From Oscillospiraceae bacterium (GTDB lineage Bacteria > Bacillota > Clostridia > Oscillospirales > Oscillospiraceae): a DNA stretch of 56,550 nt. The stretch is from the NCBI GenBank assembly GCA_009787625.1, contig WQSX01000014.1, forward strand, positions 1-56,550, written 5' to 3'. How positions within the stretch are numbered: the first letter of the stretch is position 1; each line of letters starts with the position of its first letter. This document shows, one piece after another, positions 2,784 through 42,222 of this stretch. The position numbers were made by a program, and so were the translations under genes. The notes under the pieces are model-generated. The model was given only the letters and a program-made list of their open reading frames with translations, was not told the origin of the DNA and did not search any database.

Positions 2784-2879
2784 GCAGATGATGGGTAATT
2801 TGTTCCGCTTTTTTGCGGGCCATCGGGATCTACACCGCTGTTCCCGCAAAAAAGACTCCACAAACAGCCCATCATCTGC
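2784..2879. repeat. Palindromic repeat R1 (conserved core 2820-2842)
   Basis: A ~96-bp imperfect palindrome between the activase stop and the MATE start. The outer arms (GCAGATGATGGG) and the inner arms (CTTTTTTGCGGG) pair perfectly, with a mismatched patch between. The loop holds the family core, which reads AGCGGTGTAGATCCCGATGG on the minus strand. Same family as R2 (7244), R3 (26499) and R4 (42131). One frame of the core encodes SGVDPDG, so small reading frames here are artefacts of the repeat. Confidence 0.85.
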
Positions 2880-2913
2880 TACATTTTGCTATTTTCACAC
2901 TGTTTCTTTGCAC

Positions 2914-5900
2914 CTACGGTGCACCGTCTACCAACTTCGAAATGTCTCCTTCGCCTTTGAAACGCAATACGTTTACCATAAAAATGTTGAGCTTATTGAC
3001 GATATTAGGTGGCAATACATTTCCGTCCACTTCAACCGATAAAATCGGGTAATTCCTGTCTCTTGCCCAAGGCGTGAATATCCCTTCTATGACCCTGCCT
3101 ATCAGGCACGCAAATGGTGCTATGTTTATAACGCCTGAATAACCTGCTTCCATCGCGGCGGCAGCTGAACCTGTTGATACAGCTATCTCGGATTGTAGCT
3201 CTAAGTTTACGAAATTATCCTTAGTGTACCCCATAATAAGTTCCATATCGTGAGGAGTTTCAGGAATTAGCCCTGTTGGCATTAGAATAGAAAGTACCTT
3301 TTTTTCTACTGAGTGTTTCCACCACTTCTCTACTCCCAGTTTTTTCTTTCTCTTCCACTGCTCGGTAAATAAGCGCTTAAACGGACCCATTAGATTTAGT
3401 CGCTTAGTTAAATCATAATTGCGTACAAAGTCGAGATAGTGAATCCACTCAGCAATTCCTGCAACTTTTACAATGATTCCCCTCTCGCTCATCAAGTCGG
3501 TGAGTTCTCCTACTGCAAAATCATCTCGCCTCACATAGATTTCGCCAACTACAAGTACCTTGGGACAATCTGTCACTTTCATTTTAAGTGGAATTTTCTT
3601 CACATCATCAGCTACATTTTGTAGTTCTCTCCAAATATCTTTAGGTCTGTGTTCTACCACTTCCATAAGTTTTTTCCACGACTTGTCAAACGTGGCCAGT
3701 GCAGATTTTCTATCTGTCGCCACTGTATTCAAGGAATTCCTTACGTCCTTTAAGTAGTCTGAAAGCACTATGCCTTTCCACATGTCTTTTGAAAATCCCG
3801 AGCCCAGTTCGCCGTATGAGTTGTCGGCGGACAGGGTGAAAACAACCACATTTTCAAGGCGCATATCTCTAAACAGATTTTCGTAGTACACATAATACTG
3901 ACCCGTTCTGCATGGACCTGTGGTGATTGGTACAAACAATAGATAGAGTTCATCTTTGCGATAGTTTTCGCTCCAGACAAATTCAAGCGCAGAACCAAGT
4001 ACCAAGTGACTTGGTACGCATTCCTTACCTGATGAATGTGCGCGTGCCGCCATTACGGTTTTTGCAGTTGCAACAGGCAGCGCTTCGGCACCTACGCCTT
4101 GTGCTCTCAGCACCGCACCTATGTACTCGGTTGAAATCTCACCCATATTTGAGAGCAGCACCTTGACCCGCTTGTTGCCGCGAATCGGCACACTCTCCCC
4201 TGTCTTACTATTGTCAACACGTAGCTCAAACTCTCCGTCGGACTTCTCTTCGCTTATAAAACTCCAGCCGTTATCATAACGCTCACCTTCGACTTCAGCT
4301 TTTCTGCTCTTGTAGCCATCAATGACATCGAGAAAAGCCTCAACACGGGTGTCGATCCCCGCATCTGCGGTGTGATTATCAAGCTCCAGAACCAAAAATG
4401 GTTTTTGACCCATTATCCACTTTATGTAGTGCAAAATGAATGAATCGGGTGCGCATGAGAAGTTTGTCACGTATGTGAGATAGATGTTGTCCTCATTTTT
4501 CAGCAGACTTGCAGATTTGACATCTTCCTGTCCGTAATACCAATACATATTCGGGAATATATTTTCATCTTCAAACGGCAAGATATCAAACGGCACTATG
4601 GAATAGCCCCTTGTTGTAAACTTTTTCGGTATTCCCATATTCGCTTCGGACGCAAACGCATTATATGCTCTGCCTAAGATTGCTATGACAGGTCTGTCTG
4701 CTGCCCTTGCCTCTTCAAGAGCCTCAAGTCCCAGTTTTTTCGCCGCTTTGAAATAATCATTTTGCTTTTCGAGGGCAAAGTTAAACGCTTCTTCAATCTC
4801 AACTCCTGAAATTCCGAGTTTTTCTCCCAGCCCAGAGAAGAGTTCCAGCGCTTTATCGTTGCCGTACTTAAAGCTTACAACAAGCGGAAGCCATCTCTTT
4901 TCGTCGATGTGCGGAAAGGCTTTTGTCATGTAGTATGGCAGAGCCTGTGTAAGTGGGCAGAAGTTTGCGTGTACGTCGGTCTCATAGCTTGGCATATCTC
5001 TGAAATGCGGCAAAAGTACATAGTCTGCACCTTTATCGAGGCAGTCTTGCACTGCTCCGTGGGCTATTTCTGCAGGGAAGCAGTACGCCGCCTCTGCTCT
5101 CGCCATTCCCTCATGCGGCACTTCGATTGACAAAATTGTCTTTATGCCCAGTTTATGGAAAAACCACGAGTACAGCGGGTACAAAGTGTGTACTGACAGT
5201 GCCTTGGGGATTCCGACAGTATAGTTTCGAGTTGGATTATCAATAGTTGGCGCGGCAGAATCCTCATATAATAGTTTCTGCCGTTTTTCTACGTAGTCAA
5301 ATATTGGCACATCGTCAATTGATTTGCGTATATTTGCATATTTATTACACCTGCCGCCAAACATTATTTTGCGGTCTTTGAGTTTTAGTACCTGAATCGG
5401 GCAATAGTTTTCGCAAGCTTGACATGCAAATATCTTGTCATAACCAATCTCTGTTTCGAGCAGGCTATCTATGTCCACTTTCTTTTCTTCCAGTAATCCG
5501 TCCGCAAGCCTACGCTCGGCAAGTAGTGCAACTCCAAAACATCCCATAAGCTCAGGCGATGGTGGAACAAGGATTTCCTTACCAAGCAACATCGCAAACG
5601 CCGCGGAGACTGCCGGGTTCTTTGCAACCCCACCTTGCAAGAAAACCTTACCGCTGATTGTGCGGTTTCCAACTACACGATTTAAGTAGTTCGCTACAAT
5701 CGAGCAGACGATTCCCGCCGTTATGTCCTCGCGTGTCGCCCCCTGCGCTATCGCCTTTCGTATATCACTGTTAATAAATGCACTGCAATGTTCGCCGAAC
5801 TTCAGCGGTGCTTTTGCACTCAGTGCTATCGGACCGATATCTCTGTCGCTGAAAATAGACAGGTCACCCGCCGCACTCTCTTCGAGGAAAGAACCTGTTC

Positions 5901-7188
5901 CCGCACTGCAAGCCTCATTCATCGCATAGTCAATCGGCACTCCGTTTTTGAGAAGTACATACTTTGCATCTTGACCGCCGATTTCAAAAATCGTCTCCAC
6001 TTCGTTGTCGTAATAGCTTGTTCCCATTGAATGTGCAATGATTTCATTGTAGACACCACGAGTTTCGAGAAATACGCCAAGTATCTCACGGCTTGAACCT
6101 GTTGTCGCTGAGATTACAATATCTATATCCTTACTTCCCATATCGGCAATCACTTTATCTTGCAAAATCTTTAAGCACTCTTTTAATGCCCTAACAGGGT
6201 CGCCGTGCGTTCTCCCGTAGTGACTTGCCACAACCTCTTTTGTATCAATATCTACAAGGCAAGCCTTTGTTGTGGTTGAGCCGCCGTCAACACCGAGAAC
6301 ATATCTTGCATCCGATTTAACCTTGCCATTAGGTTTGTCGAACACTTTTACTTTACTCGCAAATTCATCAAGCGCATCAAGTGTTTCAAACTTGATTTCA
6401 CCTGATTTCATCAATTTTTCTATCTCAGGTAATGGACTCCCAAACTCACCCGCCAAAGCCGATGCACCCAGAGCCTCAAACACTGCCGCAGTTTCGGGTA
6501 CAATAAACTCAATATCGGGCGCACTCTCTTTAATAAACCTTATTACATGGCTATTGAGGGTCATTCCCCCTGTAAGAACCACCCTGCCGCCTGTTATATT
6601 TGCCCTCTTCAGAAAGTCAATTACTTTTACCGCCATGACATGTGAAAGCGATAGGACAATATCTTGCTTTGAAGCCTCGCGTTTGTTAAGCTTGTGAGTA
6701 CAGTCACTTTTCATAAACACACTGCAACGTGTTGATATGGGGTATACTTTTGCAGTATCGGGAACTTTCTCGATATCCTCCGGACCTAAATCCATACGAG
6801 CCAGTTGTTGCATCAAAAATTCGCCTGTGCCTGATGCGCATTTATTGCCTGAAAAACTTCCGACGATTTTACCCTTGTCAAGCGAGTAGACAATAAGGTC
6901 CTCTCCGCCCATACTGACGACAGCATCGGCATCTATAGCAAGAGATTTTATCGCCGCCTCAACACATACGGGCTCGAGTGTGCCCGCCAGATTAAATATA
7001 AATCGACCTTCGTTCCCTGTAATCAGAGCCAAAGTGCCTGCAGGCACTTTTCCTTCATTAAGTAATCGTTTTGCCGCTTCCGCAAAGTCTCCCTCATGAC
7101 TGAGTGAAGCGCTCCAAACTGTCTTACCATCTTCGCAAAGCACCATTTTAAGGCTGGTTGAGCCTATGTTTACTCCCAAAGTTTGCAT
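2914..7188 (-). CDS. 2-hydroxyacyl-CoA dehydratase activase-related giant protein (two ASKHA domains + DUF2229/HgdB-like)
   Basis: About 1424 residues, in three parts. The N-terminal BadF/BcrA-type ASKHA ATPase has GVNIGSTSLKM and the cysteine motifs KCASGTGEF and RCSVFMKSDC. The second ASKHA domain, near residue 300, has GVDGGSTTTKA, GGQDAKYVL, ACSAGTGSFLE and HCSAFINSD. The C-terminal DUF2229/HgdB-like part starts with a Cys cluster (CQACENYC...GGRC). In HgdC-type activases those paired cysteines hold a [4Fe-4S] cluster that delivers an ATP-activated electron to a 2-hydroxyacyl-CoA dehydratase. The single-chain form is common in clostridia and its exact substrate is unknown. Start: ATG 7188 (MQTLGVNIG) has GAGG 12 bases upstream; ATG 7206 lacks an RBS. 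No dehydratase subunits are nearby. Palindromic repeats R1 and R2 flank the gene. Confidence 0.85.
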   Translation of the reverse strand: MQTLGVNIGSTSLKMVLCEDGKTVWSASLSHEGDFAEAAKRLLNEGKVPAGTLALITGNEGRFIFNLAGTLEPVCVEAAIKSLAIDADAVVSMGGEDLIVYSLDKGKIVGSFSGNKCASGTGEFLMQQLARMDLGPEDIEKVPDTAKVYPISTRCSVFMKSDCTHKLNKREASKQDIVLSLSHVMAVKVIDFLKRANITGGRVVLTGGMTLNSHVIRFIKESAPDIEFIVPETAAVFEALGASALAGEFGSPLPEIEKLMKSGEIKFETLDALDEFASKVKVFDKPNGKVKSDARYVLGVDGGSTTTKACLVDIDTKEVVASHYGRTHGDPVRALKECLKILQDKVIADMGSKDIDIVISATTGSSREILGVFLETRGVYNEIIAHSMGTSYYDNEVETIFEIGGQDAKYVLLKNGVPIDYAMNEACSAGTGSFLEESAAGDLSIFSDRDIGPIALSAKAPLKFGEHCSAFINSDIRKAIAQGATREDITAGIVCSIVANYLNRVVGNRTISGKVFLQGGVAKNPAVSAAFAMLLGKEILVPPSPELMGCFGVALLAERRLADGLLEEKKVDIDSLLETEIGYDKIFACQACENYCPIQVLKLKDRKIMFGGRCNKYANIRKSIDDVPIFDYVEKRQKLLYEDSAAPTIDNPTRNYTVGIPKALSVHTLYPLYSWFFHKLGIKTILSIEVPHEGMARAEAAYCFPAEIAHGAVQDCLDKGADYVLLPHFRDMPSYETDVHANFCPLTQALPYYMTKAFPHIDEKRWLPLVVSFKYGNDKALELFSGLGEKLGISGVEIEEAFNFALEKQNDYFKAAKKLGLEALEEARAADRPVIAILGRAYNAFASEANMGIPKKFTTRGYSIVPFDILPFEDENIFPNMYWYYGQEDVKSASLLKNEDNIYLTYVTNFSCAPDSFILHYIKWIMGQKPFLVLELDNHTADAGIDTRVEAFLDVIDGYKSRKAEVEGERYDNGWSFISEEKSDGEFELRVDNSKTGESVPIRGNKRVKVLLSNMGEISTEYIGAVLRAQGVGAEALPVATAKTVMAARAHSSGKECVPSHLVLGSALEFVWSENYRKDELYLLFVPITTGPCRTGQYYVYYENLFRDMRLENVVVFTLSADNSYGELGSGFSKDMWKGIVLSDYLKDVRNSLNTVATDRKSALATFDKSWKKLMEVVEHRPKDIWRELQNVADDVKKIPLKMKVTDCPKVLVVGEIYVRRDDFAVGELTDLMSERGIIVKVAGIAEWIHYLDFVRNYDLTKRLNLMGPFKRLFTEQWKRKKKLGVEKWWKHSVEKKVLSILMPTGLIPETPHDMELIMGYTKDNFVNLELQSEIAVSTGSAAAAMEAGYSGVINIAPFACLIGRVIEGIFTPWARDRNYPILSVEVDGNVLPPNIVNKLNIFMVNVLRFKGEGDISKLVDGAP

Positions 7189-7243
7189 AGAAATATAAGT
7201 CCTCATTTATTATATTATTATTTTGTAACTATACACCGGGCTA

Positions 7244-7338
7244 GCAGATGATGAGCAGTTTACACTGGTTTTTCGGGAGAACAGCGGTGTAGATCCCGAT
7301 GGCTCTCGAAAAATCAGGGTAAATGGCTTATCATCTGC
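7244..7338. repeat. Palindromic repeat R2 (conserved core 7280-7302)
   Basis: A 95-bp palindrome between rpoD and the activase gene, with 36-nt arms around the core. The core reads forward on the plus strand, antisense to both neighbours. Of 36 arm positions 30 are Watson-Crick, 4 are G.T on the plus strand and 2 are A.G. The outer arm GCAGATGATGAG is shared with R1 and R3. No T-run follows, so it is not a simple terminator. Confidence 0.85.
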
Positions 7339-7364
7339 GGGGGTGCGCAACAGTTTCATTATTT

Positions 7365-8753
7365 TTACGGAAATAAGAAATCCTTTAATTTCTTGCTCCG
7401 ACTCGGGTGGCGAAGTTTACGCAGTGCTTTCGCCTCGATTTGTCTGATTCGCTCGCGAGTTACGCTGAACTCTTTACCGACTTCTTCAAGTGTGCGAGTA
7501 CGCCCATCTTCGATGCCAAACCTGAGTTTCAGCACTTTTTCCTCGCGCGGAGTCAGAGTTCCGAGAACACCGTTTAACTGCTCTTTTAAAAGAGTAAATG
7601 ATGCGGCTTCCGCAGGTTCAGATGCATCCTCATCGGGGATAAAATCACCAAGATGGCTGTCCTCTTCTTCACCAATCGGTGTTTCAAGCGAAACCGGCTC
7701 TTGCGCAATTTTGAGAATTTCCCGCACTTTCTCAACAGGCATACCCATATCTTCTGCAATTTCTTCAGGAGTTGGGTCATGCCCCAGTTCTTGCAGAAGT
7801 TGGCGAGAAATACGCATAACTTTATTTATGGTCTCCACCATATGGACAGGAATTCTGATTGTACGAGCTTGGTCAGCTATCGCACGAGTAATGGCTTGAC
7901 GAATCCACCAAGTTGCGTAAGTTGAAAACTTATAACCCTTGGTGTAGTCAAACTTTTCAACAGCTTTAATAAGCCCCAAGTTGCCCTCTTGAATGAGGTC
8001 CAAGAAAAGCATGCCACGACCCACATAACGCTTTGCAATACTCACAACAAGGCGCAGATTTGCCTCTGCCATCTGCCGCTTTGCCTCTTTGTCACCCTCA
8101 GACATTTTTTTAGCCAACTCAATCTCAGCTTCGGTAGTAAGCAGGCTAACTTTACCAATCTCTTTTAGGTACATGCGCACCGGGTCGTCAATGCTGAAAT
8201 TGTCCACAAGAGCTTCCGGGTCTATCAGTTCTTCTTCGGAAAGTGTTTCAATCTCGGCAAGCTCTTCCAGTTCAGGAGATTCATCTTCTGAAGCTACGAA
8301 ATTTGCCTCTTCTGTCTCAGCCATGCTGATATTGAGGTTTTCGAGTGTATCATAGAACTTATCTATCTGCTCTTGATCTAAGTTCAAATCTTCAAGAACA
8401 TCAAGCAATTGTTTTGAGCTTAAATTGCCCCGCTTCTTCCCCTCTTCTATGAGCGCCTTGAGTCGTTCTTCAATGTAGCGTTCCTGAGCTTGCATAGCAA
8501 ATTTCTCATGCTCGTTTAGCTCATCAACATCATCAAGGTCGGAAATTTCACCCAGAGCATCAATATCCTCCAGATCATCTAAATCGTCTAAGTCGTCCAA
8601 ATCATCAAGCTCACTAATATCCGGAACATCGTCAATAGATTTGAGGTCGTCATTATCGTCAAAATCACCGAGCCCCTCAAGGTCGTCCTTTTCCATCGGC
8701 GATGAATTTAAATCCTTTTGATTAGCTTTTCCTTTTGATTTTTTTTCATTCAT
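7365..8753 (-). CDS. rpoD: RNA polymerase primary sigma factor (sigma-70/SigA)
   Basis: 462 residues. Sigma regions are clear: 1.2 ([12 protein letters not shown]), 2.1-2.4 ([51 protein letters not shown]), 3 and 4.2 ([20 protein letters not shown]), ending in [13 protein letters not shown] as usual. It directs core polymerase to housekeeping promoters. The N-terminus is extremely acidic (residues ~22-84, [11 protein letters not shown] repeats) where other family members carry region 1.1. The ATG lies 2 bases after the dnaG stop, so it is translationally linked to dnaG; the order dgt-dnaG-rpoD is the classical clostridial macromolecular-synthesis operon. Repeat R2 follows the gene. Confidence 0.97.
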
Positions 8754-8755
8754 TC

Positions 8756-10519
8756 TTACTCGCCATTCCTTTCCGTAGATTTTGTCTTTTGTTGTCTTAT
8801 TTTAAGCAACGTGTCTGTATCAGGCACATGCGTTCTAAGCTTTTCGCTTCTGATTTTTTCGATATATGTATGGATTGTTTTATCGTTGTCAGCAAGGGCT
8901 TCGGGTCTATCCATAATTCTCATAAGCTGTGATGCCTCGCTCGACTCCAGTTCGTTTAATATTAGACTCATTTTAACTTCTCTGTCCTCTGATATGCGTG
9001 ACTCCAAAGTTATATACACTTTTTCCAAAAATGTTGAAGTGAATTCCGTGTGTGAAAATCCGGTTTCGAGCGCAATTTTAATGAGTGTTGGGTCTCGCAT
9101 CAGACATCTTATTATACCCTCTTCGGCAACGGCTGACGCTTCGTTGTCGTATCTAAGCTCACGGCTTGCGGGTTGAATGTTTGTTTTAGGCCGCATTACC
9201 TCCCGCTCACGATTTTTTGCTTTAGCTTTGGTTTTTGCCTTTACCCTTTTTTCGATCTCTGTGTTGACTGCACTTACTGACACGCCGCCCTCTTTTGCCA
9301 CTTTTACTGCATAAATCTCACGCTGGGGCATATTGTTTATTTCAGCCAGTATGTCAGTTGCCTTTGCGAGATATGATAGTCTCCCCTCATCTGTCTGCAT
9401 ATCGTGGCTTTTAGAAATTGTGAGCAGACGATAGTCTGTTTGGCTTTCGCCTTGGCGCAAAAGTGCTTTAAAAGCATCTGCACCTCTCTTACGAATGTAA
9501 TCATCGGGATCTCCCGATGTTCCCAAATCCACAACCTTTATTTTTTTTCCTGTCGCTTCAAGGAGCGGAAGAGCTCTTAAAGTCGCCTTTTTTCCCGCCT
9601 CATCAGGGTCGAACGCTATTATAACAGTTTCTGTGTATGATGCCATGAGTCTTGCTTGTTCGGCGGTAAATGCTGTTCCCAGCGGTGCAACCGCACTGTC
9701 AAACCCCGCTTGATGCAGCGTTACAACATCTATATTTCCCTCTACAAGTAGGAGATTGCCTGCTTTAGAGTTTTTCGCAAAGTTGAGCGCATACATATTT
9801 CGGCTTTTTGTAAATGCCACGGTATCAGGAGAATTTATATATTTCGGTTCGCCGTCATCGAGGATTCTGCCGGAAAATGCGATTACATTACCTCGTACAT
9901 CTATTACAGGAAACATTAATCTGTTTCTAAAAAAGTCATAGGCACCTTCGCCACCTCGTCCGGGTCTGCAAAGCCCGGCTTCTATTAGCTCCGTTTTTTT
10001 ATAGCCCTTTTTCTGCATTGCATCGAGCAATGTTGTCCAACTGTCTGGTGCGGCACCGAGTCCAAAACGTGTTGCGCTTGCTTTTGTTATTCCCCGCTGT
10101 ACCAAGTAGTCACGAGCCGAGGTGCAAAGTGGAGATGAGAGCATTGTGTGAAAATGCCGTGCCGCATCGCGGTTGAGTTCAAGCAGTTTGCGGCGGCGAT
10201 TTGCCACTTCCAGTTGCCCCGCTTCCTCCGGCACGGTCATTCCTGCTCGTCTTGCGAGTACCTCAACAGCATCTCGAAACGGTAGATTTTCGATTTCCCG
10301 AATAAACCCTATTGCTCCACCGCCTTTACCGCAACCAAAACAGTAGTATATCTGCTTTTCGGAGTTTACCGAAAATGACGGTGTTTTTTCACTGTGAAAC
10401 GGGCAAAGACCAAACATGTTAGTCCCGCTTCTCTTACCCAAACGGACATATCCACTGACAAGCTCTACAATATCCGTCCTACTAACAAGTTCATCAAGAA
10501 AAGCATCAGGTAAAGCCAC
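8756..10519 (-). CDS. dnaG: DNA primase
   Basis: 587 residues, a normal length. The N-terminal CHC2 zinc-binding domain has C39, H42, C60 and C63 ([22 protein letters not shown]). A TOPRIM catalytic domain follows, with [15 protein letters not shown], the metal-binding [10 protein letters not shown] and GDPDDYIRK. The variable C-terminal part should bind the DnaB helicase. It synthesises RNA primers on the lagging strand at the fork. GTG start with AAGGAG about 8 bases upstream (TAAGGAGATGCAAC). It lies 15 bases after dgt and 2 before rpoD. Confidence 0.97.
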
Positions 10520-24428: not shown

Positions 24429-26483
24429 ATGAAAGATATTATTTGGTTATTAGGATCAAGAATCTTAATCCTCGCAGCCTTAGCAGCCATCGGAGGCTTG
24501 GTTTTTAGCTCATGGCTTGGCGCTGTCTTTCTCCCTGTTACTATCGTAGCGGTAAAAATCTTAGTGCGTCTAACAATGGGTGCAATAAGAAACAGCAAAA
24601 TGAGAAGCAAACTCGGAGAAGAAGCCACCATGCAAACAGACGAATCCGGTTACACCTTCTGCGACCTTAACAAAAATGGGAAGCTGGATATTTATGAAGA
24701 TTCTCGTGAGCCGATAGAGCGGCGTGTTGAGGATTTGCTCTCTCAAATGACTATTGAAGAAAAAGTCGGACAAATGTTCTGCCCCTATTTAAGCTCAACT
24801 AACGAAAATAAGCTGCATAAAAAAGGCAGTCCGTTTTCGGCTGGAACCGTACTTGAAACGATTGCCGAAAAGCAAGTCAGTGCATTTAGTTGCATGGGCT
24901 CGGCAAAACCCGAAGTGTTTGCTAAATGGTACAACGCCTGTCAAAGACTCGCCCGCCGAACAAGGCTCGGAATCCCTATAACCCTCGGCTCCGACCCCAG
25001 ACATCACTTCATAGGCGAAAACAATCCTCTCGCAACCCTTGTAGATAACGGCTTGTCCACATGGCCTGCCCCTATCGGCCTTGGAGCATGTGCCGATGAA
25101 AATCTGGTGGAGACTTTCGGCAAACTCGCTAGACGTGAACTGCGCGCACTCGGCATAAGTTTTGGACTTCACCCCGTCGCAGACACAGCCACCGAGCCAC
25201 GTTGGCCTCGCATCAAGGAGACTTTCGGCGAAGATGCTGATTTAAATTCTCGCCTTACAGCGGCATATATCAGAGGGTTTCAAGGCGAAAAAATAGACAG
25301 TAGCAGCGTCGCCTGCTGTGTGAAACATTTTCCGGGCGGAGGTCCTCAAAAAGATGGCGATGATGCACACTACACATTCGGCAAAGAGCAAATATATCCG
25401 GGCGACGGTTTTGATTATCATCTAAAGCCCTTTGAGGCGGCAGTAGATTCTGACGTTGCCGCAGTCATGCCATATTACGGCATACCGATTGGGCAAGAAG
25501 GCATAGAAGAAGTCGGGTTTAATTTTAATAAAGATGTCATTACAGGGCTTCTCAGGGAAAAACTGGGTTATGACGGCATTGTGCATACTGACTATAGCAT
25601 AATAAAAGACAATCTCATAGCAGGAATTCGCCTGCCCGCACGAGCTTGGGGTGTAGAAGCTCTCTCTGCGCACGAGCGAGTAAAAAAGGCAATTGATGCG
25701 GGTATTGACCAATTGGGCGGTGAGTTTTGCTCCGAGCTTTTGGTTGATTTAGTGAAAAGTGGCGAAGTCTCGGAATCACGAATAGACGAATCCTGCCGCC
25801 GTGTGCTCACACTCAAATTTAAGCTTGGACTGTTTGATAACCCGTTTGTCCCCGTTGAAGATGCGATAAAACTTTGCAATAACGCCGAATATGCAAAAGC
25901 AGGTGAGGACGCAATGAGAAAATCGCTCGTTTTGCTGAAAAACGGCAAAAACGACACATCTACTCTCCCGCTCGCCAAAAATATCAAAGTATATATCGAG
26001 GGATTTCAAAAAAGCAATGTAAGCCGCTATGCCGAGGTTGTCAGCAGTCCCGACAAGGCTGATTTCGCTTTGGTTCATCTTGATTTCCCATACAGAACCG
26101 ACAAAAGAGAACTTTTAGCGATGATGTTTAAAGGTTTGGACTTAGACTACACAGAAAAGCAAAAAAAGAAGCTCCACAAAGTCATGAAAACTTGCCCGAC
26201 TATTGTGTGTATCAACATGGTGCGGCCCGCCGTTATCCCCGAAATAGCCGAGCATTCGGCAGGGATTCTCTGTGAGTTCGGCGCACGGGAAACCATAATA
26301 CTGGAAGCTATATTCGGAGAATTCTCACCAAGCGGCAAGCTACCTTTTGAACTCCCGCGAAGCATGGAAGCTGTGCGCAAGCAAAAATGCGACACCCCAT
26401 TTGACAGCGAAAATCCGCTCTATGAATACGGCTTTGGCTTACAATATGATGGTATAGATGTTGCGACATTTGATTATGTATAA
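24429..26483 (+). CDS. Membrane-anchored glycoside hydrolase family 3 enzyme
   Basis: 684 residues. Two hydrophobic segments at ~5-50 anchor it in the membrane. An EF-hand-like calcium loop (D-x-N-x-N-G-x-x-D-x-x-E, residues 79-90) precedes the GH3 barrel (RRVEDLLSQMTIEEKVGQM). KETFGEDADL, KHFPGGGPQKDGDDAHY and the putative nucleophile Asp in YDGIVHTDYS follow. The second domain is present (EDAMRKSLVLLKNGK) but the protein lacks the Fn3-like end of its upstream neighbour. Same family as that gene but divergent, so not a recent duplicate. The catalytic domain may face inside or outside; topology cannot be decided. RBS AAAGG, ten bases. Confidence 0.88.
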   Translation: MKDIIWLLGSRILILAALAAIGGLVFSSWLGAVFLPVTIVAVKILVRLTMGAIRNSKMRSKLGEEATMQTDESGYTFCDLNKNGKLDIYEDSREPIERRVEDLLSQMTIEEKVGQMFCPYLSSTNENKLHKKGSPFSAGTVLETIAEKQVSAFSCMGSAKPEVFAKWYNACQRLARRTRLGIPITLGSDPRHHFIGENNPLATLVDNGLSTWPAPIGLGACADENLVETFGKLARRELRALGISFGLHPVADTATEPRWPRIKETFGEDADLNSRLTAAYIRGFQGEKIDSSSVACCVKHFPGGGPQKDGDDAHYTFGKEQIYPGDGFDYHLKPFEAAVDSDVAAVMPYYGIPIGQEGIEEVGFNFNKDVITGLLREKLGYDGIVHTDYSIIKDNLIAGIRLPARAWGVEALSAHERVKKAIDAGIDQLGGEFCSELLVDLVKSGEVSESRIDESCRRVLTLKFKLGLFDNPFVPVEDAIKLCNNAEYAKAGEDAMRKSLVLLKNGKNDTSTLPLAKNIKVYIEGFQKSNVSRYAEVVSSPDKADFALVHLDFPYRTDKRELLAMMFKGLDLDYTEKQKKKLHKVMKTCPTIVCINMVRPAVIPEIAEHSAGILCEFGARETIILEAIFGEFSPSGKLPFELPRSMEAVRKQKCDTPFDSENPLYEYGFGLQYDGIDVATFDYV

Positions 26484-26498
26484 CTGTTCGGTACCCCC

Positions 26499-26593
26499 GC
26501 AAATGATGAGCGGTTTACCCTGGTTTTTCGGGAGCCATCGGGATCTACACCGCTGTTCTCCCGAAAAACCAGGGTAAACCGCCCATCATCTGC
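26499..26593. repeat. Palindromic repeat R3 (conserved core 26535-26557)
   Basis: The best-preserved copy: 36-nt arms with 34 of 36 positions paired. The two exceptions are A.C on the plus strand, hence G.U on the minus strand, where the core reads forward. It lies between the second GH3 gene and the metallo-hydrolase gene, both on the plus strand. Confidence 0.9.
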
Positions 26594-26634
26594 TGCATTT
26601 GTGAGTGATCTTTACATTGGGAGTTTTTGTTTTT

Positions 26635-34449: not shown

Positions 34450-35358
34450 ATGGAACATTATAGCGGACGAAGGCAAAAATCCAGACAGAGACAAAGGCGG
34501 CGGCGAAGAACTCTTTTCGCTAAAGTTCTTGCATTTGTAATTTTAATTGCGGTATCTATCGTGGCATATACGCATTTGATGGCTGACACAGGCAATAGCG
34601 GATATTCAACTGTAAGCACTTCTACTGTCTCACACAGATTTCCATCTTTTAATACAGAGCTCCCCATCTCGGACATCGAGGACACGCAATATTTAAAACT
34701 CGTAAATCGCAACCTCTCTATTAACACCCCGGTTGAGCCAAGTTTGCTTGCTCCGATTTGGCCCGGTGTATCTGTGCGTGCAGTTGATATAACACTGCAC
34801 GAAACGGCAAGGAGCGCAATGCTTAAGCTTTACCAAGCCGCAGAGCGTGATGAAATCCATAATTTATTTGTCGCAAGTGGCTATCGAACACACGAAGAAC
34901 AGCGCAATCTCTATGAAAACGCAAGTGACAGAAGATATGTCATGCCACCGGGGCATTCAGAACATCAGCTGGGGTTGGCAGTAGACATTTTGCTTACCAC
35001 AGGCAGTATCAGAGGGACAAGCGAAGCGATGTGGCTGACCGAAAATGCGCCTGAGTTTGGACTAATTCTCAGCTATCCGTATCATAAGCAGGAAATAACA
35101 GGTGTTGCCTACGAACCTTGGCATTTTCGCTATGTAGGGCGAGTACACGCATCGGTTATGTTACAGCATGACTTTGTACTTGAGGAATACATAACGTTCT
35201 TGCAGGAAACCGTTGGAATACAAGTCGAGTTTGACGAAGAGAATTGGTATATCTTGTACCAACGTCCGATAGATGGTAAAATATTCGTGCCACACGATAT
35301 GGACTTTAATGTTTCAAGCACCAATACGGGTGGATTTATTATTACGGCATGGAGGTAA
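34450..35358 (+). CDS. VanY-like D-alanyl-D-alanine carboxypeptidase
   Basis: 302 residues. An arginine-rich cytoplasmic start, one membrane segment (~22-45), then a zinc peptidase domain with S-E-H-Q-L-G-L-A-V-D at 170-179 and EPWHF at 222-226, the VanY/DacB M15B motifs. Such enzymes trim the terminal D-Ala of peptidoglycan stem peptides outside the cell. No vanHAX ligase genes are present, so this is not by itself a vancomycin-resistance cluster. The stop codon is directly followed by the VanR start. Confidence 0.88.
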   Translation: MEHYSGRRQKSRQRQRRRRRTLFAKVLAFVILIAVSIVAYTHLMADTGNSGYSTVSTSTVSHRFPSFNTELPISDIEDTQYLKLVNRNLSINTPVEPSLLAPIWPGVSVRAVDITLHETARSAMLKLYQAAERDEIHNLFVASGYRTHEEQRNLYENASDRRYVMPPGHSEHQLGLAVDILLTTGSIRGTSEAMWLTENAPEFGLILSYPYHKQEITGVAYEPWHFRYVGRVHASVMLQHDFVLEEYITFLQETVGIQVEFDEENWYILYQRPIDGKIFVPHDMDFNVSSTNTGGFIITAWR

Positions 35359-36078
35359 ATGTTTTTGGAATACACAATATTTGTATGTGATGATGATGAA
35401 GATATTCGCAATGCGCTGACTATTTATTTCAGTCAAGAGGGTTATAGGGTTTTGCATGGGAAAGATGGCTCTGATGCCGTTAAGGCGGCTGAAAAAGAGA
35501 CACTTCATCTAATAATTTTGGACGTAATGATGCCTAGTCTCGACGGCATTGCGGCGGCTGTGAAAATTCGAGAGAAGAGCAATGTGCCTATACTCTTTCT
35601 TTCCGCTAAAAGCGAAGAAACCGACCGCATTTTAGGGTTAAATATGGGCGGAGACGACTATATAACGAAGCCCTTTAACCCGATAGAGCTTATCGCCCGA
35701 GTGAAAGCCGCACTCAGGCGGTATGCCCGACTTGGCGGTATAAGCGGCAATGAAACAATCGCAAAGAGCCCCGGTATTTATCAAACAGGTGGGCTTGTCC
35801 TCGACGATGACAAAAAGCAGGTGAGCATTGACGGGTGGGAAGTAACGCTTACAGCACTGGAATACAACATACTAAAACTGATGATTTCAAATCTCGACAG
35901 AGTGTTTTCTTCAAATCAAATCTACGAAGCAGTTTGGGACGAGCCTGCTTTTCATGAGTCAAAAACCGTGTCTGTGCATATAAGACATATTCGGGAAAAA
36001 ATTGAAATCAACCCTAAAGAGCCGCATTACCTAAAAGTCGTCTATGGGTTGGGTTATAAGGTGGTGCGCCATGATTAA
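35359..36078 (+). CDS. OmpR/VanR-type response regulator
   Basis: 239 residues. Receiver domain with acidic pocket DDDED, phosphoacceptor D55 (LIILDVMMPS) and K104 (YITKPFNP); winged-helix DNA-binding domain ~140-236 (LTALEYNILKLMI, SVHIRHIREKIE, GLGYKV). RBS GGAGG within the end of the VanY gene. Coupled to the kinase by an ATGATTAA overlap. Likely controls this operon and peptidoglycan-related genes (inference). Confidence 0.93.
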   Translation: MFLEYTIFVCDDDEDIRNALTIYFSQEGYRVLHGKDGSDAVKAAEKETLHLIILDVMMPSLDGIAAAVKIREKSNVPILFLSAKSEETDRILGLNMGGDDYITKPFNPIELIARVKAALRRYARLGGISGNETIAKSPGIYQTGGLVLDDDKKQVSIDGWEVTLTALEYNILKLMISNLDRVFSSNQIYEAVWDEPAFHESKTVSVHIRHIREKIEINPKEPHYLKVVYGLGYKVVRHD

Positions 36079-37516
36079 AATTCTATGCTCCCCTCTTACA
36101 AAGCTATTGCTTGTTTTTGCAGCATATCTTGCGCTCGTGTCGGCACTGCGGGGTGTCAGTCACACATTTCACGTGCTGTTCCGAAGCATTTTCGGCGACT
36201 GGTTGCACTTTGGTTTAATTCCATCCTTTACCCTCTTAGCCATGCTTCTCGGCGCTCTGGGGTTTTCAGTTTTTAAGACAAAAAAAGGTTTCTTACGGCA
36301 AGAAACACTCTTTGTCCTATGGCGTAAAATCGATGGATTTTTGATGATTGTTTTCGCAATTTGGTTTGCATTATTTCTGATGATTCAGACATATAGACAG
36401 TGGGGCACGCCTGAATCTATAATTCCCTACACAGGCGCATATCTACTTTTTATTTTGGTGGCGACAGAGATTATTGCGCGTATTCGCGATAAAGAGTTTA
36501 TGTCGAGTTTTTGCCTCGCGGACTTTTTCAAAAAATATCCTGTTTGGAGTCCTTTGGGGTTATTAATTTTAGTTACTCTCATGGCAAATCTGCTGATACT
36601 TTTCTTTTCGCATTTATCATCAATCGGTGTCGGGGTTTTTCTCCGCGCAAGCGCAGTGATTATGGTAGAGCGGGCAGTTGTGCTTCACTTCAATGCAGAG
36701 GGCTTTTTACAGACAATATCTGCGCTCTCCATCGTTGGAATTGCTTGTTTTGTGATGGTCTTACGGAGTCTTTCTAAAAAATACGACAAAGCAAATGACG
36801 AAAAGCTCCGTTCAGAACGCTTCAAGAGTGAGCTTATCACCAATGTCTCACACGATATCCGAACACCGCTCACCTCTATCATAAACTATGTAGATTTGCT
36901 GAAAGCGAGGCCGCTAAATGGCGATACCGCCGAGTATGTAGCGGTTTTAGACAGAAAATCCGCACGGCTTAAAACGCTGATTGATGATTTGATGGATGCT
37001 TCAAAAGCAGGCACGGGCAATGTCAAGGTGGAGCCTAAGTCCGTTGATTTAACAGAGCTTATTGGGCAAGTCGCAGGAGAGTTTGATGACCTGTTTATCG
37101 CACGAAACTTAACACTTGCACTCCGCCAACCCGACGAGACGGTTTTTGCCATAGCTGACAGTCGCCACCTGTGGCGTACACTTGAAAACTTGTTTTCCAA
37201 TGCCATAAAGTATTCCCTCCCCGGCACTCGTGTGTTTGCAGAGCTTTCGCAAATTGCAGAAAAAACGGTGTTCACGATGAAAAATACATCGCAAACACCG
37301 ATTGATCTATCAGGAGATGCCTTAACCGAACAATTCATCCGAGGCGACAAAGCTCGCGAAAGCGAAGGCAGTGGATTGGGTCTCTACATCGCTAAAAGTC
37401 TCGTGGAATTGATGGACGGGCAATTTGAAATCCGCACATCGGGAGATTTATTTGAAGTGGAGATTAGGCTGAGTGCTCTGCCTTTACCGTCTCAACATAT
37501 TCATCATAAGTCATAG
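36071..37516 (+). CDS. VanS-type sensor histidine kinase
   Basis: 481 residues. About seven hydrophobic segments in the first 235 residues rather than the usual two. Then H-box NVSHDIRTPLTSI with H261, N-box NLFSNAIKYS, and G-box GSGLGLYIAKSLVELM. The ATPase F-box is weak. ATG 36071 overlaps the VanR stop by eight bases. It probably senses a membrane or cell-wall signal through its multi-span sensor. The last 53 bases overlap the 3' end of the convergent ABC-F gene. Confidence 0.9.
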   Translation: MIKILCSPLTKLLLVFAAYLALVSALRGVSHTFHVLFRSIFGDWLHFGLIPSFTLLAMLLGALGFSVFKTKKGFLRQETLFVLWRKIDGFLMIVFAIWFALFLMIQTYRQWGTPESIIPYTGAYLLFILVATEIIARIRDKEFMSSFCLADFFKKYPVWSPLGLLILVTLMANLLILFFSHLSSIGVGVFLRASAVIMVERAVVLHFNAEGFLQTISALSIVGIACFVMVLRSLSKKYDKANDEKLRSERFKSELITNVSHDIRTPLTSIINYVDLLKARPLNGDTAEYVAVLDRKSARLKTLIDDLMDASKAGTGNVKVEPKSVDLTELIGQVAGEFDDLFIARNLTLALRQPDETVFAIADSRHLWRTLENLFSNAIKYSLPGTRVFAELSQIAEKTVFTMKNTSQTPIDLSGDALTEQFIRGDKARESEGSGLGLYIAKSLVELMDGQFEIRTSGDLFEVEIRLSALPLPSQHIHHKS

Positions 37517-39065
37517 CCCTATCGATAATTCCATCATTCGTAAACTCAATAATACGATTCGCCATCGTCTGAATTAACTGATGGTCATGGGTCGTCAAAA
37601 TTACGTTGCCTTTGAAATCGACAAGCCCATTGTTGAGTGTGGCTACACTTTCCAGGTCAAGGTGGTTGGTCGGTTGGTCGAGAAGCAAGACGCTTGAACC
37701 CGACAGCATCAGTTTTGAAAGCATACAGCGTACCTTCTCACCCCCCGAAAGCACACGCACTTCTTTATATACATCATCGCCCGTGAACAGCATTCTACCC
37801 AGAAACGTCCGCAGGTAGCTCTCACGTTTATCTTCCGAATACTGACGAATCCAGTCAATGATTGAAAGCTGGCCATCTTTGAAGAGCTCGCTGTTGTCTT
37901 TCGGGAAATACGCCTGTGAGGTCGAAACACCCCATTTTATTTCCCCCTCATCAGGCTCCATTTCTCCCGCCAAGAGCTGAAACATGGTAGTTATGGCATT
38001 TTCGTTTTCACCAATGAATGCTATTTTGTCGTTTTTATCCATGATAAAATTCACTTTATCAAGCACTTTCACACCGTCTATTGTTTTTGAAACATCAGTG
38101 ACAAAAAGCCTGTCTTTGCCCGGCTCGCGCTCCATTTTAAAGCCCACCCAAGGGTAGCGGCGAGTGGACGCGGGCATTTCTTCAATTTTAATTTTCTCGA
38201 TTAGCTTTTTCCTTGAAGTTGCCTGACGGGATTTAGATTTATTTGCCGAAAAGCGACGCACAAATTCTTCGAGTTCTGAGATTTTATCCTCATTTTTCTT
38301 GTTCTTTTCCTTAATTAGCTTTTGCATTAGCTGGCTTGAATCATACCAAAAGTCGTAGTTTCCGACATACATCTTTATCTTCTCGAAGTCGATGTCTACA
38401 ATGTGTGTACAGACTGTATTTAGAAAATATCTGTCATGCGCCACAACTATCACGGTACCCTCATAATCCATCAAGAAATCTTCAAGCCATACTACACTAC
38501 CGACATCTAGGTTGTTAGTCGGCTCGTCCAGCAAGATGATATCAGGTTTGCCAAAAAGTGCCTGCGCAAGCAAAACCTTCACTTTTTGACGAGGTTCAAG
38601 TGCCGTCATATCGCTGTGATGCAGTGATGTTGGTATACCAAGCCCCTGCAAAAGTTGCGAAGCATCTGACTCGGCTTCCCATCCTCCGAGTTCTGCATAC
38701 TTCTCTTCAAGCTCAGCGGCAAGTATTCCATCAGCATCGGAAAAATCCTCTTTGAGATAGAGCGCATCTTTTTCCTTGCCGCATTCATATAACTCTAAGT
38801 TCCCCATTATAACCGTGTCGATAACCATGTGCTGATCATACATGTTTTGGTCTTGTTTCAAAACCGACATGCGCACATTTGGTTTTATATCAATACTTCC
38901 GGTAGTATGGTCAAGCTCCCCCGATAGTATTTTGAGAAATGAGGATTTCCCCGAACCGTTCGCGCCGATAACCCCATAACAATTGCCGGGTGTGAACTGC
39001 AAGTCCACCCTCGAAAAAAGAGTCGTTCCACCAAATTGTAGACTTAGGTTGTTGACTGTAATCAT
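37464..39065 (-). CDS. ABC-F ATPase, YbiT/YkpA type, with degenerate second ATP site
   Basis: 533 residues. Domain 1 has a normal Walker A (GANGSGKSS) and LLDEPTNNLD, but its signature is degenerate (LEPRQKVKVLL). Domain 2 has an altered Walker A (GENENAITT, the lysine is replaced by I) and LLLDQPTNHLD, where the catalytic Glu is Gln, with a good LSGGEKVR. The family acts on ribosomes; relaxed motifs occur in some members, as I recall, but should be checked. ATG 39065 (MITVNNLSL) is chosen by homology; ATG 39077 overlaps the RBS. The leader GATTCGAAAGGAATGGTCAT matches those at 21886 and 49572. Confidence 0.85.
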   Translation of the reverse strand: MITVNNLSLQFGGTTLFSRVDLQFTPGNCYGVIGANGSGKSSFLKILSGELDHTTGSIDIKPNVRMSVLKQDQNMYDQHMVIDTVIMGNLELYECGKEKDALYLKEDFSDADGILAAELEEKYAELGGWEAESDASQLLQGLGIPTSLHHSDMTALEPRQKVKVLLAQALFGKPDIILLDEPTNNLDVGSVVWLEDFLMDYEGTVIVVAHDRYFLNTVCTHIVDIDFEKIKMYVGNYDFWYDSSQLMQKLIKEKNKKNEDKISELEEFVRRFSANKSKSRQATSRKKLIEKIKIEEMPASTRRYPWVGFKMEREPGKDRLFVTDVSKTIDGVKVLDKVNFIMDKNDKIAFIGENENAITTMFQLLAGEMEPDEGEIKWGVSTSQAYFPKDNSELFKDGQLSIIDWIRQYSEDKRESYLRTFLGRMLFTGDDVYKEVRVLSGGEKVRCMLSKLMLSGSSVLLLDQPTNHLDLESVATLNNGLVDFKGNVILTTHDHQLIQTMANRIIEFTNDGIIDRAMTYDEYVETVKAEHSA

Positions 39066-39114
39066 ATTAATGACCATTCCTTTCGAATCTTCCGCTTAAG
39101 TATAACGTATCTAG

Positions 39115-39163
39115 TTGTTTTTAACAACATAATGTGGTATTATGTATATATTGTTAATAACAA
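39115..39163. promoter_or_regulatory. Two TTGTT-N3-AACAA palindromes on a promoter
   Basis: Identical-pattern 13-bp palindromes at 39115-39127 and 39151-39163, centres 36 bp apart. The first covers a TTGTTT -35; 17 bases later is TATTAT (39138-39143); the second begins just after the -10 and ends at the RBS. This is how repressor operators are commonly placed. They lie between the ABC-F gene and the small membrane protein gene. Confidence 0.5.
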
Positions 39164-39176
39164 GGAGGTGGGCATT

Positions 39177-39584
39177 TTGGAAGGTAATGTAGGCTATTTG
39201 GTAGCTATTGTTTTTCTTGTGCTCGCGCTTAATATATATATAACTTTCAAACGTATTAGCAGCACTAAGAAACGTAACAATAGTAATAGAAGAACCAGGG
39301 TAGAGCTTGATGTGGAAAAACAAGCCATCTGGCGTGATAAAGAGATTGCCCGCAGAATAGCCAGAGAACAAGATGATTATCTTGAACGGATAAAATTACG
39401 CGACGAGACTCTGGCCTTTTATGAAGAAGTGAGACGCCGCCATGTTTTCAGCGATGAACCTGATAAGAATAATGACACTGCAATTGAAATCACCACGGTA
39501 TTTAACGCCGATACCGGGTTTTCAGATGCCGATATTGAGCCGATAGGGAGTGTGCCCGACATTGAACACGATGAGCGGCGCTAA
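39177..39584 (+). CDS. Small single-span membrane protein, unknown function
   Basis: 135 residues from a TTG start (39177) with an excellent AAGGAGGTG 8 bases upstream; the longer frame from 39132 would run through the promoter and operator-like sites. A membrane segment at ~5-22 (VGYLVAIVFLVLALNIYI) is followed by a highly charged cytoplasmic tail, probably helical (EKQAIWRDKEIARRIAREQD). No family recognised. It ends four bases from the convergent nadBC gene. Regulation by the flanking palindromes is likely. Confidence 0.55.
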   Translation: MEGNVGYLVAIVFLVLALNIYITFKRISSTKKRNNSNRRTRVELDVEKQAIWRDKEIARRIAREQDDYLERIKLRDETLAFYEEVRRRHVFSDEPDKNNDTAIEITTVFNADTGFSDADIEPIGSVPDIEHDERR

Positions 39585-39588
39585 GATT

Positions 39589-42063
39589 TCACCTAAACTT
39601 AAGGCTTATATCCATCGCCCGCACTGAGTGAGTTAGCGCACCTATGGATATAAAATCCACACCTGTTTTCGCCACAGCCAACAAATCATTGTCTCCCATA
39701 TTGCCGGATGCCTCTGTTAGAGCGCGTCCGGCTATTTCATTAACAGCATCACGCATGAGCTCAAGCGACATATTGTCGAGCATTATTATATCGGCTTTTG
39801 CATCAAGAGCCTCTCTCACTTGCTCAATACGCTCTGTTTCGACTTCGATTTGGAGCGATTTGTCAAGCGAGTGTGAAGCTATTCTTTTTCGTACAAGCTC
39901 TACCGCTTTTGTAATCCCGCCTGCGGCTTTGATATGATTATCTTTTATAAGCACTCCATCAGAGAGGTTAAATCTGTGATTTGTCCCGCCGCCGCATTTG
40001 ACTGCATATTTATCGAACGCGCGAAAACCCGGGGTAGTCTTACGGGTGTCTTTGATTTCAGTGGCTTCGCCTGACACTTTTTCCACAGCTTCGGCGGTTT
40101 TTGATGCAACACCTGACATATGTTGCAGCAGGTTTAGCGCAACCCGCTCGCCCGTTAAAATCGCACGGGAATGTCCTTTAATTTCAGCAAGATTCGTTCC
40201 CTGAGTAACTTTATCACCGTCGCTTACAAAGCAAGTCATAACTACTTTGTCATCAAGAAGTTCAAATACACGTTTTGCAACACTTAACCCGCAAACCACT
40301 CCGGGCTCTTTAGCAATAAAGCTTCCTTCCGATATAGCCGTTTCCGCTACAGTGCTAAGTGTGGTTACATCGCCTGTGCCGACATCTTCCTCAAGCGCAG
40401 AGCGTATAAACCCATCTAAATCAAATCCAAACATATTTTGAAAATCCACCGTTTCTGCCTCGCCCTCCGGACCATTCGAGCCTTCCGAGTTATGACCGCT
40501 TAATTCCGCTTTTTCAATAAAGTGAGACCCAATGCTTTCATCTCTGCTCAGTGCCGCTTCTAAAACAGCTTTTGCCACTGTAGCTATGTTCAGAGTTTCA
40601 AGATACTCCGTGCTACTATCATAAATCCGCTCAAGTTCCACAAGAATCTCTGAAACCTTTTTTAGCGCATATTCTAAACCTTCATTTGTTCTTATGACGT
40701 AACAATACTCGCTCATCAGCTCCTTAACAGACCTGCGCAGGGAGATATAGTCAAGCTTTTCATGAGTTCTGCTCTGTGTGCCAAAGTCAAAATCCGATAA
40801 ACTCATGTCCAACGGCTGAGACGAAGTGAGCTCACTGTAAGCTGAGTTTATAAACTCAGCGGCACGGCGACCAAAAACTAAACACTCAAGCATAGAGTTT
40901 GATGCAAGCCTGTTTGCACCGTGAACACCTGTGTTTGCCGCTTCACCACATGCATATAATCCTTTGATATTTGTACAGCCGTTAACATCAGTCTCTATAC
41001 CACCCATGAGGTAGTGCTGTACAGGGTGAACCGGAATAAGTGCTTTTGCAATATCAATGCCACGGTTAAGGCATTCCCCATATATAGTGGGAAAACGTTT
41101 TTTTAAGAACTCCTCAGATTTTGATGTGATATCCAAGTACACGTGGTTTTCACCCGACTTGCGTAGCTCCGCCGCTATACCACGAGCGACGATATCACGC
41201 GGAGCAAGCTCCCCTAGTTCATGCTCGCTCGTCATGAACCGCTCGCCTTTACTGTTCACCAAAACAGCGCCTTCACCGCGTACAGCTTCGGAAATTAAAA
41301 ACTCATTGCCCGACTGCGAGCTATCCCACAAGCCTGTTGGATGAAACTGAATAAACTCCAAGTTCGTCACCTTTGCGCCGCACCGAATTGCGGCCGCAAT
41401 GCCATCGCCTGTGGCAACAGGGGGGTTTGTTGTTGATTTATAAACCTGACCGATTCCCCCCGTTGCTATTATCACACTTTTCGCCAAAACAAGGTGAAAC
41501 TCACCATCACTTTTTGAGATTACAACCCCAACGACCATGTCGTCTTTCACAACAATATCATAAAGGCAAGTGTGACCGCTAAACGATATATTCTCCTTTT
41601 TTGCAACCATGTATGCCAGAGTTCTGATAGTCTCACGGCCTGTGGCATCTCCGCCAGCATGAACTACTCTGCTCTTTTTATGTCCACCCTCTTTTGTGAA
41701 ATGAAATTCTCCATATTCATCTAAATCGAATGGAACATTTAGTTTTACTAACGTTTCAATATCCGACGGACCTTCATTTACAAGCACTTCCACCGCCTCG
41801 GTATCACATTCGCCCGCTCCTGCAACTATGGTGTCGTTGAGGTGAAGCTCCGGTGTGTCGTCACGGTTGATAGCCGCGGCGATTCCACCCTGCGCCAGCC
41901 ATGAACTTGATGCATCTAAATTCTCTTTTGCGATCATAAGTAAATTGAGCTTCTCATCGAGGTTGAGCGCCGCATAAAGACCGGCAAGCCCCGCTCCAAC
42001 GATTACAACATCATACTCATAGGTCTTTGATATTTTTGTATCTGAATTTATTGCATATTTCAA
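39589..42063 (-). CDS. NadB-NadC fusion: L-aspartate oxidase + quinolinate phosphoribosyltransferase
   Basis: 824 residues. Residues ~15-530 are L-aspartate oxidase: FAD-binding VVIVGAGLAGLYAAL, SSSWLAQGGIAAA, HAGGDATGRE, and GEAANTGVHGANRLASNSML. From ~545 to 824 is NadC: LEEDVGTGDVTT, LNLLQHMSGVAS, DTRKTTPGFRAFDKYAV, GGGTNHRFNLSDGVLIKDNH and IEVETERI. The two catalyse the first and third steps of de novo NAD synthesis (Asp to iminoaspartate, quinolinate to NaMN); NadA for the middle step is not in the window. TTG start at 42063 with GGTGA upstream. Repeat R4 lies upstream. Confidence 0.93.
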   Translation of the reverse strand: MKYAINSDTKISKTYEYDVVIVGAGLAGLYAALNLDEKLNLLMIAKENLDASSSWLAQGGIAAAINRDDTPELHLNDTIVAGAGECDTEAVEVLVNEGPSDIETLVKLNVPFDLDEYGEFHFTKEGGHKKSRVVHAGGDATGRETIRTLAYMVAKKENISFSGHTCLYDIVVKDDMVVGVVISKSDGEFHLVLAKSVIIATGGIGQVYKSTTNPPVATGDGIAAAIRCGAKVTNLEFIQFHPTGLWDSSQSGNEFLISEAVRGEGAVLVNSKGERFMTSEHELGELAPRDIVARGIAAELRKSGENHVYLDITSKSEEFLKKRFPTIYGECLNRGIDIAKALIPVHPVQHYLMGGIETDVNGCTNIKGLYACGEAANTGVHGANRLASNSMLECLVFGRRAAEFINSAYSELTSSQPLDMSLSDFDFGTQSRTHEKLDYISLRRSVKELMSEYCYVIRTNEGLEYALKKVSEILVELERIYDSSTEYLETLNIATVAKAVLEAALSRDESIGSHFIEKAELSGHNSEGSNGPEGEAETVDFQNMFGFDLDGFIRSALEEDVGTGDVTTLSTVAETAISEGSFIAKEPGVVCGLSVAKRVFELLDDKVVMTCFVSDGDKVTQGTNLAEIKGHSRAILTGERVALNLLQHMSGVASKTAEAVEKVSGEATEIKDTRKTTPGFRAFDKYAVKCGGGTNHRFNLSDGVLIKDNHIKAAGGITKAVELVRKRIASHSLDKSLQIEVETERIEQVREALDAKADIIMLDNMSLELMRDAVNEIAGRALTEASGNMGDNDLLAVAKTGVDFISIGALTHSVRAMDISLKFR

Positions 42064-42130
42064 TTTATTTCACCAATGAACTCTTTCATGTTAATTGTAT
42101 CCTGATTTTCTGTTCCTGCCCACAGGGTAG

Positions 42131-42222
42131 CCCGGAATTGGCAGTTTGCGGAGTCGCTTTGCGAAGCAGCGGTGTAGATCCCGATGGCTCGCAAAAAAGC
42201 GTAGCAAATTGTCAATTTCGGG
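42131..42222. repeat. Palindromic repeat R4 (conserved core 42167-42187)
   Basis: Core identical to R1-R3, but the arms have a different sequence (outer CCCGGAATTGGCAGTTTGC against GCAAATTGTCAATTTCGGG; inner TTTGCGA against TCGCAAA). Three outer-arm differences are all G.T on the plus strand, where the core reads forward. Between nadBC and lacZ, antisense to both. Confidence 0.8.

Follow-up and report, generated by a model that had tools for sequence, protein, structure and literature searches.

Several described systems of repeats resemble the element analysed here in one respect or another. In integron attC sites, such as the Vibrio VCRs, a single strand folds, structure is kept over sequence and families are species-specific, and the dialects of DNA uptake signals are likewise species-specific short sequences present in many copies. 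REP, BIME and REPIN elements are described as extragenic palindromes, often in more than 100 copies per genome, which form hairpins and carry compensatory changes (in the relevant sections of PMC2817692 and PMC3116915), and ERIC and other stem-loop repeats as intergenic sequences that fold into a long stem-loop; for four stem-loop families the same source says that structures are possible on both strands (in part of PMC2267715). Among transposons, a table of PMC3281130 gives two IS66 members, ISPpa5a and ISPpa7, with 8-bp duplications.

In the window, the whole stretch of 56,550 nucleotides under analysis, the original prediction had placed an identical 20-nt core at four sites, within palindromes starting at 2784, 7244, 26499 and 42131. 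Exact cores were found at all four (shuffle mean 0.00, with four matches in none of 100 shuffles), and the hairpins begin within 1-2 nt of these positions. Two belong to what we call family A: R2 (7243..7339, plus strand; core at 7283..7302; 98.8 bits with our model R1) and R3 (26498..26594, minus strand; core at 26535..26554; 103.7 bits). The other two are non-A copies: R1 (2783..2880, minus strand; core at 2820..2839; 102.1 bits, plus pairing) and R4 (42129..42224, plus strand; core at 42168..42187; 79.4 bits). R2 is a complete young MITE that runs from GTAACTATACACC to CAACAGTTTC on the plus strand (7225..7357), between exact 8-bp repeats ATTATTTT that form its left (7217..7224) and right (7358..7365) target duplications. 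R3 is adjoined by a terminal-repeat remnant visible in the sequence, ATAACTGTTCGGTA (26480..26493, plus strand); no matching duplication was found for it, and it does not appear in the set with exact 8-bp duplications. According to the ORF calls the core strand is antisense to both neighbours in R2, R3 and R4, as had been noticed, and sense to them in R1. The core was said not to be palindromic, which holds for the sequence as a whole, yet RNAalifold folds it as CA-G-CGG[8 nt]CCG-A-TG.

The family is far larger than the window. In its own genome, that of an uncultured gut bacterium (3,021,779 bases in 94 contigs, 95% complete), the core occurs at 135 places with up to two mismatches (reversed-pattern control, 0) and at 132 with up to one; together with a preceding C it is exact at 122. 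We found the core only inside hairpins or truncated remains of them. After collapsing identical 60-nt flanks (L081:14460 was dropped in this way) the 135 places gave 128 distinct copies, 117 with complete flanks; this collection drew on 100 listed exact places and under-samples copies with mismatched cores. Eight places fetched later comprised six with one or two core mismatches, one (L319) with another loop and one duplicate, and the cores are less invariant than the first sample showed. Part of the core resembles what we take to be a common sequencing adaptor; an artefact of this origin was rejected, since most copies lie inside contigs, their arms differ and covary, and relatives carry other loops. 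The element falls outside known Rfam families: the window has no match at the gathering score, and each of the 13 weak matches at R2 falls short of its cut-off. Neither the core as a string nor a description of the hairpin family was found in the literature searched.

Other palindromes accompany it. A second hairpin family (L027:5110-5264, L074:10159-10326, L074:15552-15703, L081:15804-15955, L089:1597-1750 and L089:2564-2722) has loops of ~90 nt that resemble one another and an inner arm reading TGTTAAAAATATTT or TCTAAAAATAAAA; its outer arms pair, but are mostly unrelated between copies. L074 and L081 (contigs C45 and C52) each bear a same-sequence copy of both families and so seem to share a segment, through duplication or as a strain variant. 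At L094:2905-3068 another palindromic element, with ends TATACTAGCGAGCGAAAACATTT, lies inside the right arm of a core-hairpin copy.

The copies are hairpins of ~97 nt whose arms covary, which supports the idea that pairing is under selection. In 115 of the 117 complete copies the outer stem keeps 12 or more of its 17 Watson-Crick pairs, and in 116 of the 117 it is distinct; the unpaired arms that would speak against a hairpin thus did not emerge in this set. When arms are exchanged between copies the pairing is poorer, if still often fair because the copies are related. In an alignment of 70 copies, taken from 114 that were eligible, 92.8% of cells are paired, versus 78.7% after shuffling and 42.7-47.9% with partners slid; double changes affect 27 of 36 pairs (mean of 20.1 in 500 shuffles, all of which stayed below 27; 8-13 when slid), and the covariation score is 0.410 versus 0.154 shuffled. 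Whole-hairpin copying could mimic compensatory change in place. Conservation is seen in the foot (AGC/GC), in a GTTT/AAA box, in a T-run/A-run and in the loop, with a varying stem between them; the foot itself varies (CTAGC, TTAGC, GTAGC, TGAGC and others). At mid-stem, GGA/GGA or GGA/GTA face each other in 34 of the 70 copies and GTA/GTA in two, most of the others being Watson-Crick or nearly so.

The original prediction had also named the core strand as the folded one, from 10 G.T cells among 11 transition-type differences in the four arms. Leaving aside the internal loop and the inner run of R4, the arms gave the same count (R2, four G.T and no A.C; R3, two and none; R1, one G.T and one C.A; R4, three G.T). 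R4 has in addition C.A at columns 30 and 32, in its inner T/A run, which is poorly aligned, and one G.T within the internal loop (column 25). The T was held to lie always in the 3' arm: this is true outside column 28, where R1 and R4 have T.G. Genome-wide the asymmetry is strong, and A.C, which would have to be as common as G.U if neither strand were favoured, is rare. When only Watson-Crick pairs are used to anchor the stems, the core strands of 115 copies (L063:2030 and L094:2868, with fewer than 12 pairs, being left out) hold 179 G.U and 14 A.C. Most copies share an inherited wobble at positions 5 and 6, which this count takes in; without these two positions it becomes 92:13 (112 copies). 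By cell, the non-Watson-Crick states are G.T 156, T.G 23, A.C 9, C.A 5 and others 47. The hairpins of relatives give 141 G.U to 9 A.C in 72 of 79 rows, identical hairpins and those with fewer than 11 of 16 pairs having been dropped, and the strand having been set by loop motifs or, where no motif matched, by the model. Comparison of nearest neighbours (76 pairs) counts GC-GT 50 to GC-AC 8, AT-GT 26 to AT-AC 4, TA-TG 13 to TA-CA 3 and CG-TG 1 to CG-CA 1, next to 52 double changes from one Watson-Crick pair to another; as both GC-GT and AT-GT greatly exceed their A.C counterparts, a C-to-T bias alone is insufficient. No preference for G.U is seen among pair states that occur in one or two copies (8 G.U, 11 A.C, 19 other, 5 Watson-Crick), a pattern consistent with neutral decay of some of the recent changes. 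In our reading the asymmetry reflects selection acting on the core strand in a folded, single-stranded form. RNA is favoured, since G.U pairs are normal there; in DNA too G.T is the milder mismatch, so that single-stranded DNA is a possible form of the folded strand.

Taken together, we favour, with a probability of about one half, the reading that these ~135 copies are a MITE lineage spread by IS66-type transposition, with a body selected as a folded strand and loops homogenised within species. An IS66-type transposase acting in trans would have spread the elements into spacers beside gene ends; the ends would then decay, and the hairpin would be kept because its core strand acts folded, more probably as RNA than as single-stranded DNA. 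The apical loop would be the contact for a putative partner. Ectopic copying between hairpins, perhaps after cleavage at the hairpin tip, would swap and homogenise the loops, leaving the arms diverse and making the loops species-specific.

The evidence for transposition comes from the young copies, which bear out the suggestion that the element is MITE-like: they combine IS66-like ends (GTAACTRTTCA or GTTACNNTTCAC) with the ~97-nt hairpin body and 8-bp target duplications. In family A of this genome the ends are GTAACTRTTCA and TGAACAGTTAC; at least 10 of 12 positions match at the left end in 70% and at the right in 41% (each end scored on its own, in 27 copies; 1.1% and 1.7% after shuffling). 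Exact 8-bp duplications flank 7 of 28 family-A copies (shuffled mean 0.3, maximum 2) and 11 of 70 copies of relatives (mean 0.8, maximum 4). Among non-A copies only 1 of 89 has one (mean 0.6, maximum 3), and the ends are mostly missing (left, 3.6% of 84; right, 4.7% of 86; shuffled, 1.0% and 1.2%). Family A thus has the terminal inverted repeats and 8-bp duplications of an IS66-type MITE and most non-A copies do not; since the latter are almost devoid of both, we can only infer how they arrived. In one relative, G018, at least 10 copies are nearly identical and end in GTTACACTTCACA and TGTGAACTGTAAC or close variants of these, several with 8-bp repeats outside. As for the enzyme, the genome itself holds a single remnant of an IS66 gene (PF03050), behind which lies a matching terminus, CCCGTGAACAGTAAC; no intact IS66 was found in it, and none was detected in G018 either, though G018 has recent hairpin copies. 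The best-matching IS66 ends are in G001, where a 565-aa IS66-type frame lies between GTTACTGTTCAC and GTGAACTGTAAC; this genome has no hairpin match, and its IS66 no visible target duplication. An IS66-type transposase is the likely partner. In the portion of the genome that we examined, a search for hairpin arms up to 5 kb apart found no version enclosing a gene; every hit was a pair of separate copies, a lone hairpin or some other palindrome. L049:5784, L072:14471 and L120:2446 each show an end like the IS66 type and, after it, a similar ACATACCACGTCA stretch, which may mark a further family of small elements.

MITE spread explains the young copies, and the one-strand pairing, the near-constant loops and the change of loop between species need something more. 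One doubtful alternative is that the hairpin itself moves as single-stranded DNA through a RAYT/Y1 (HUH) enzyme, in the manner of REPINs, the IS66-like ends coming from composites. Strand-specific folding fits such a substrate, and near-identical non-A hairpins lose flank similarity (32% agreement at the fifth left position, and 23-61% at right positions 6-14, beyond the fifth); in family A, hairpins differing at up to 6 of ~95 sites have flanks that agree at about one third to five sixths over positions 5-20. Y1_Tnp matches occur in 17 of the 40 genomes searched, ours among the 40. The Y1/RAYT transposase proposed at the outset did not materialise here, however: the genome has only an N-terminal RAYT-like fragment (L031:5166-5438, minus strand) with a TAA inside, which scores 18.4 bits against the PF01797 cut-off of 23, and G005 and G018, the relatives with most hairpin matches, have no match, although a genome 95% complete in 94 contigs could hide a RAYT gene. 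Moreover, young copies bear 8-bp duplications, and single-strand transposition is not known to produce target duplications. REPINs, as presented in the relevant part of PMC3116915, have conserved ends and a less conserved spacer, the reverse of what we see. Membership in the REP/REPIN class was rejected for lack of a RAYT over cut-off and of a GT(A/G)G head, conserved ends and variable spacer. An RNA element carried by a reverse transcriptase was rejected as well, this genome and G005 having no PF00078 match; such matches occur in 7 of 19 genus genomes, G018 having one, in an 88-aa frame.

The same architecture with other loops, and with boxes conserved across species, exists in several genomes of the genus. 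At E up to 0.1, model R1 matches 10 of 19 genus genomes, this one included: at least 150 matches here, 101 in G005, 53 in G018, 13 in G006, 11 in G008, 8 in G007, 6 in G009 and one each in G003, G004 and G002, some places being counted twice, on both strands. The matches in G002 and G003 look like other palindromes, and G003 has a 136-nt palindrome with long arms and a ~60-nt loop (L152, 1501-1636), G002 one of 64 nt with GGGGACGGTTCTCCTGTG, unlike the core hairpins (L156, 1501-1564). Under stricter filters, with 34 candidates scored per genome, only this genome matched among 120 of the family. The core itself, at up to one mismatch, is absent from 59 other relatives, 18 of them in the genus, and the exact core from genomic and viral contig collections, from which this genome may be left out. 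The loop here is UGUAGAUC; relatives have CGAYAAGA, CGCAAUGC or UAGCAUUG. In G018, 18 of 28 sampled hairpins carry AGGGCGACAAGACCCG, the other ten having close variants of it; G006 and G007 have similar loops, G008 and G009 mixed ones, and G005 has four loop types on similar stems (14, 3, 2 and 2 of 21 sampled). The octamer CGACAAGA has small stems of different sequence around it (TGG/CCA, GGG/CCC and, at L080:8107 in this genome, TGA/TCG), which by eye supports an apical hairpin. A loop variant, GTATAT, occurs in four copies here (L056:3504, L057:5708, L313 and L316) on both stem families; we count this, together with the four G005 loop types, in favour of loop swapping. A loop pattern search matched three Oscillospiraceae MAGs, with labels including Co191 and Emb289, used as codes for the guts of Cornitermes sp. 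and Embiratermes neotenicus in the relevant part of PMC7024585. The R4 site is empty in G005, where the matching spacer has no hairpin and measures 58 rather than 176 nt between flanking matches. Two of the 21 sampled G005 hairpins lie in spacers where this genome has a hairpin in the same direction, with different loops and partly compensated arms, one of the sites here being split over two contigs; with 135 copies, independent insertion could account for shared spacers, so these pairs are only suggestive.

It seems that hairpin and loop persist in old copies whose flanks decay. In 617,813 bases, the structural model finds 30 places with the own core, three with other or broken loops at E <1e-4 (L080:8107, L081:2946 and L100:3626) and two weak matches, though the model was built from own copies and favours the own loop; L319 has yet another loop. 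This constancy, with at least 122 of 135 cores exact although the flanks have diverged, agrees with a functional RNA expressed and used in place at each locus, for instance a protein-binding or processed hairpin, mobility being past history. We regard this as unlikely, because wholly different loops in sister species would be hard to reach by selection at a hundred sites, and because the G.U preference is independent of the direction of neighbouring genes, the G.U:A.C ratio being kept in all four gene contexts (29:4, 43:8, 11:0 and 9:1). These contexts rest on longest-ORF calls, and two analyses handle overlaps differently. Among 128 spacers, 88 are clear: 64 co-directional, 18 convergent and 6 divergent, at median distances of 33 and 22.5 nt to the flanking ORFs; of all 277 spacers of at least 60 nt in the same sequence, 49 are divergent. 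The core strand lies antisense to its neighbours more often than sense (52 '<<' vs 32 '>>'), and a role in read-through mRNA is disfavoured on that account. It is the C-rich strand in 61 copies, the G-rich in 24 and neutral in 23 (108 copies), and coding bases in unselected contigs favour the G-rich strand (260,139 vs 103,518), so the core strand tends to be antisense to genes, perhaps as the stronger hairpin would be tolerated less on the other side. Least probable by far is that template switching in quasi-palindromes matches the arms with no selection on a folded product, for this would yield matched arms and double changes but predicts neither the G.U excess over A.C, which tells against it most directly, nor the boxes conserved across species, nor the GGA/GGA and GGA/GTA internal loops of 34 of the 70 copies.

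One further reading we advance tentatively, as clearly less probable than the MITE reading: the elements may form a system, present throughout the genus, of mobile and structured single strands, of RNA or of DNA, in which the swappable apical loop is a recognition code with a co-evolving partner, and inter-locus copying may renew the loop at scores of sites and so give species their dialects. A species-specific loop in a stem would be ready bait for such a putative reader. The ~135 copies, with other loops in sister species, are a natural experiment on the upkeep and homogenisation of structured repeats. Mobility and folded-strand selection, usually tangled in bacterial palindromic repeats, are separable here, the former through ends and target duplications and the latter through the G.U excess over A.C and compensatory change.

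The family can accordingly be set beside the known systems as follows: (i) like MITEs with IS66-type ends, the elements are short and dispersed, with 8-bp target duplications and terminal repeats such as those beside the IS66-type genes of the genus; unlike them, they have a long covarying hairpin body with a near-invariant loop, one folded strand, and loops found on different stems. (ii) With REP, BIME and REPIN elements they share more than 100 palindromic hairpin copies and compensatory changes; however, REPs have a GT(A/G)G head, conserved ends and a variable spacer, whereas here the loop is conserved and the arms vary, no Y1_Tnp match exceeds the cut-off, and target duplications occur. 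(iii) Like ERIC and other stem-loop families they are intergenic repeats with a long stem-loop, but one strand is favoured, a contrast that holds for those families as far as the source cited above describes them, and loops differ by species. (iv) DNA uptake signals are also species-specific short sequences in many copies, whereas this core was met only within hairpins or their truncated remains. (v) Integron attC sites, the Vibrio VCRs among them, likewise have one folded strand, structure kept over sequence and species-specific families, but here the copies are dispersed in both orientations.
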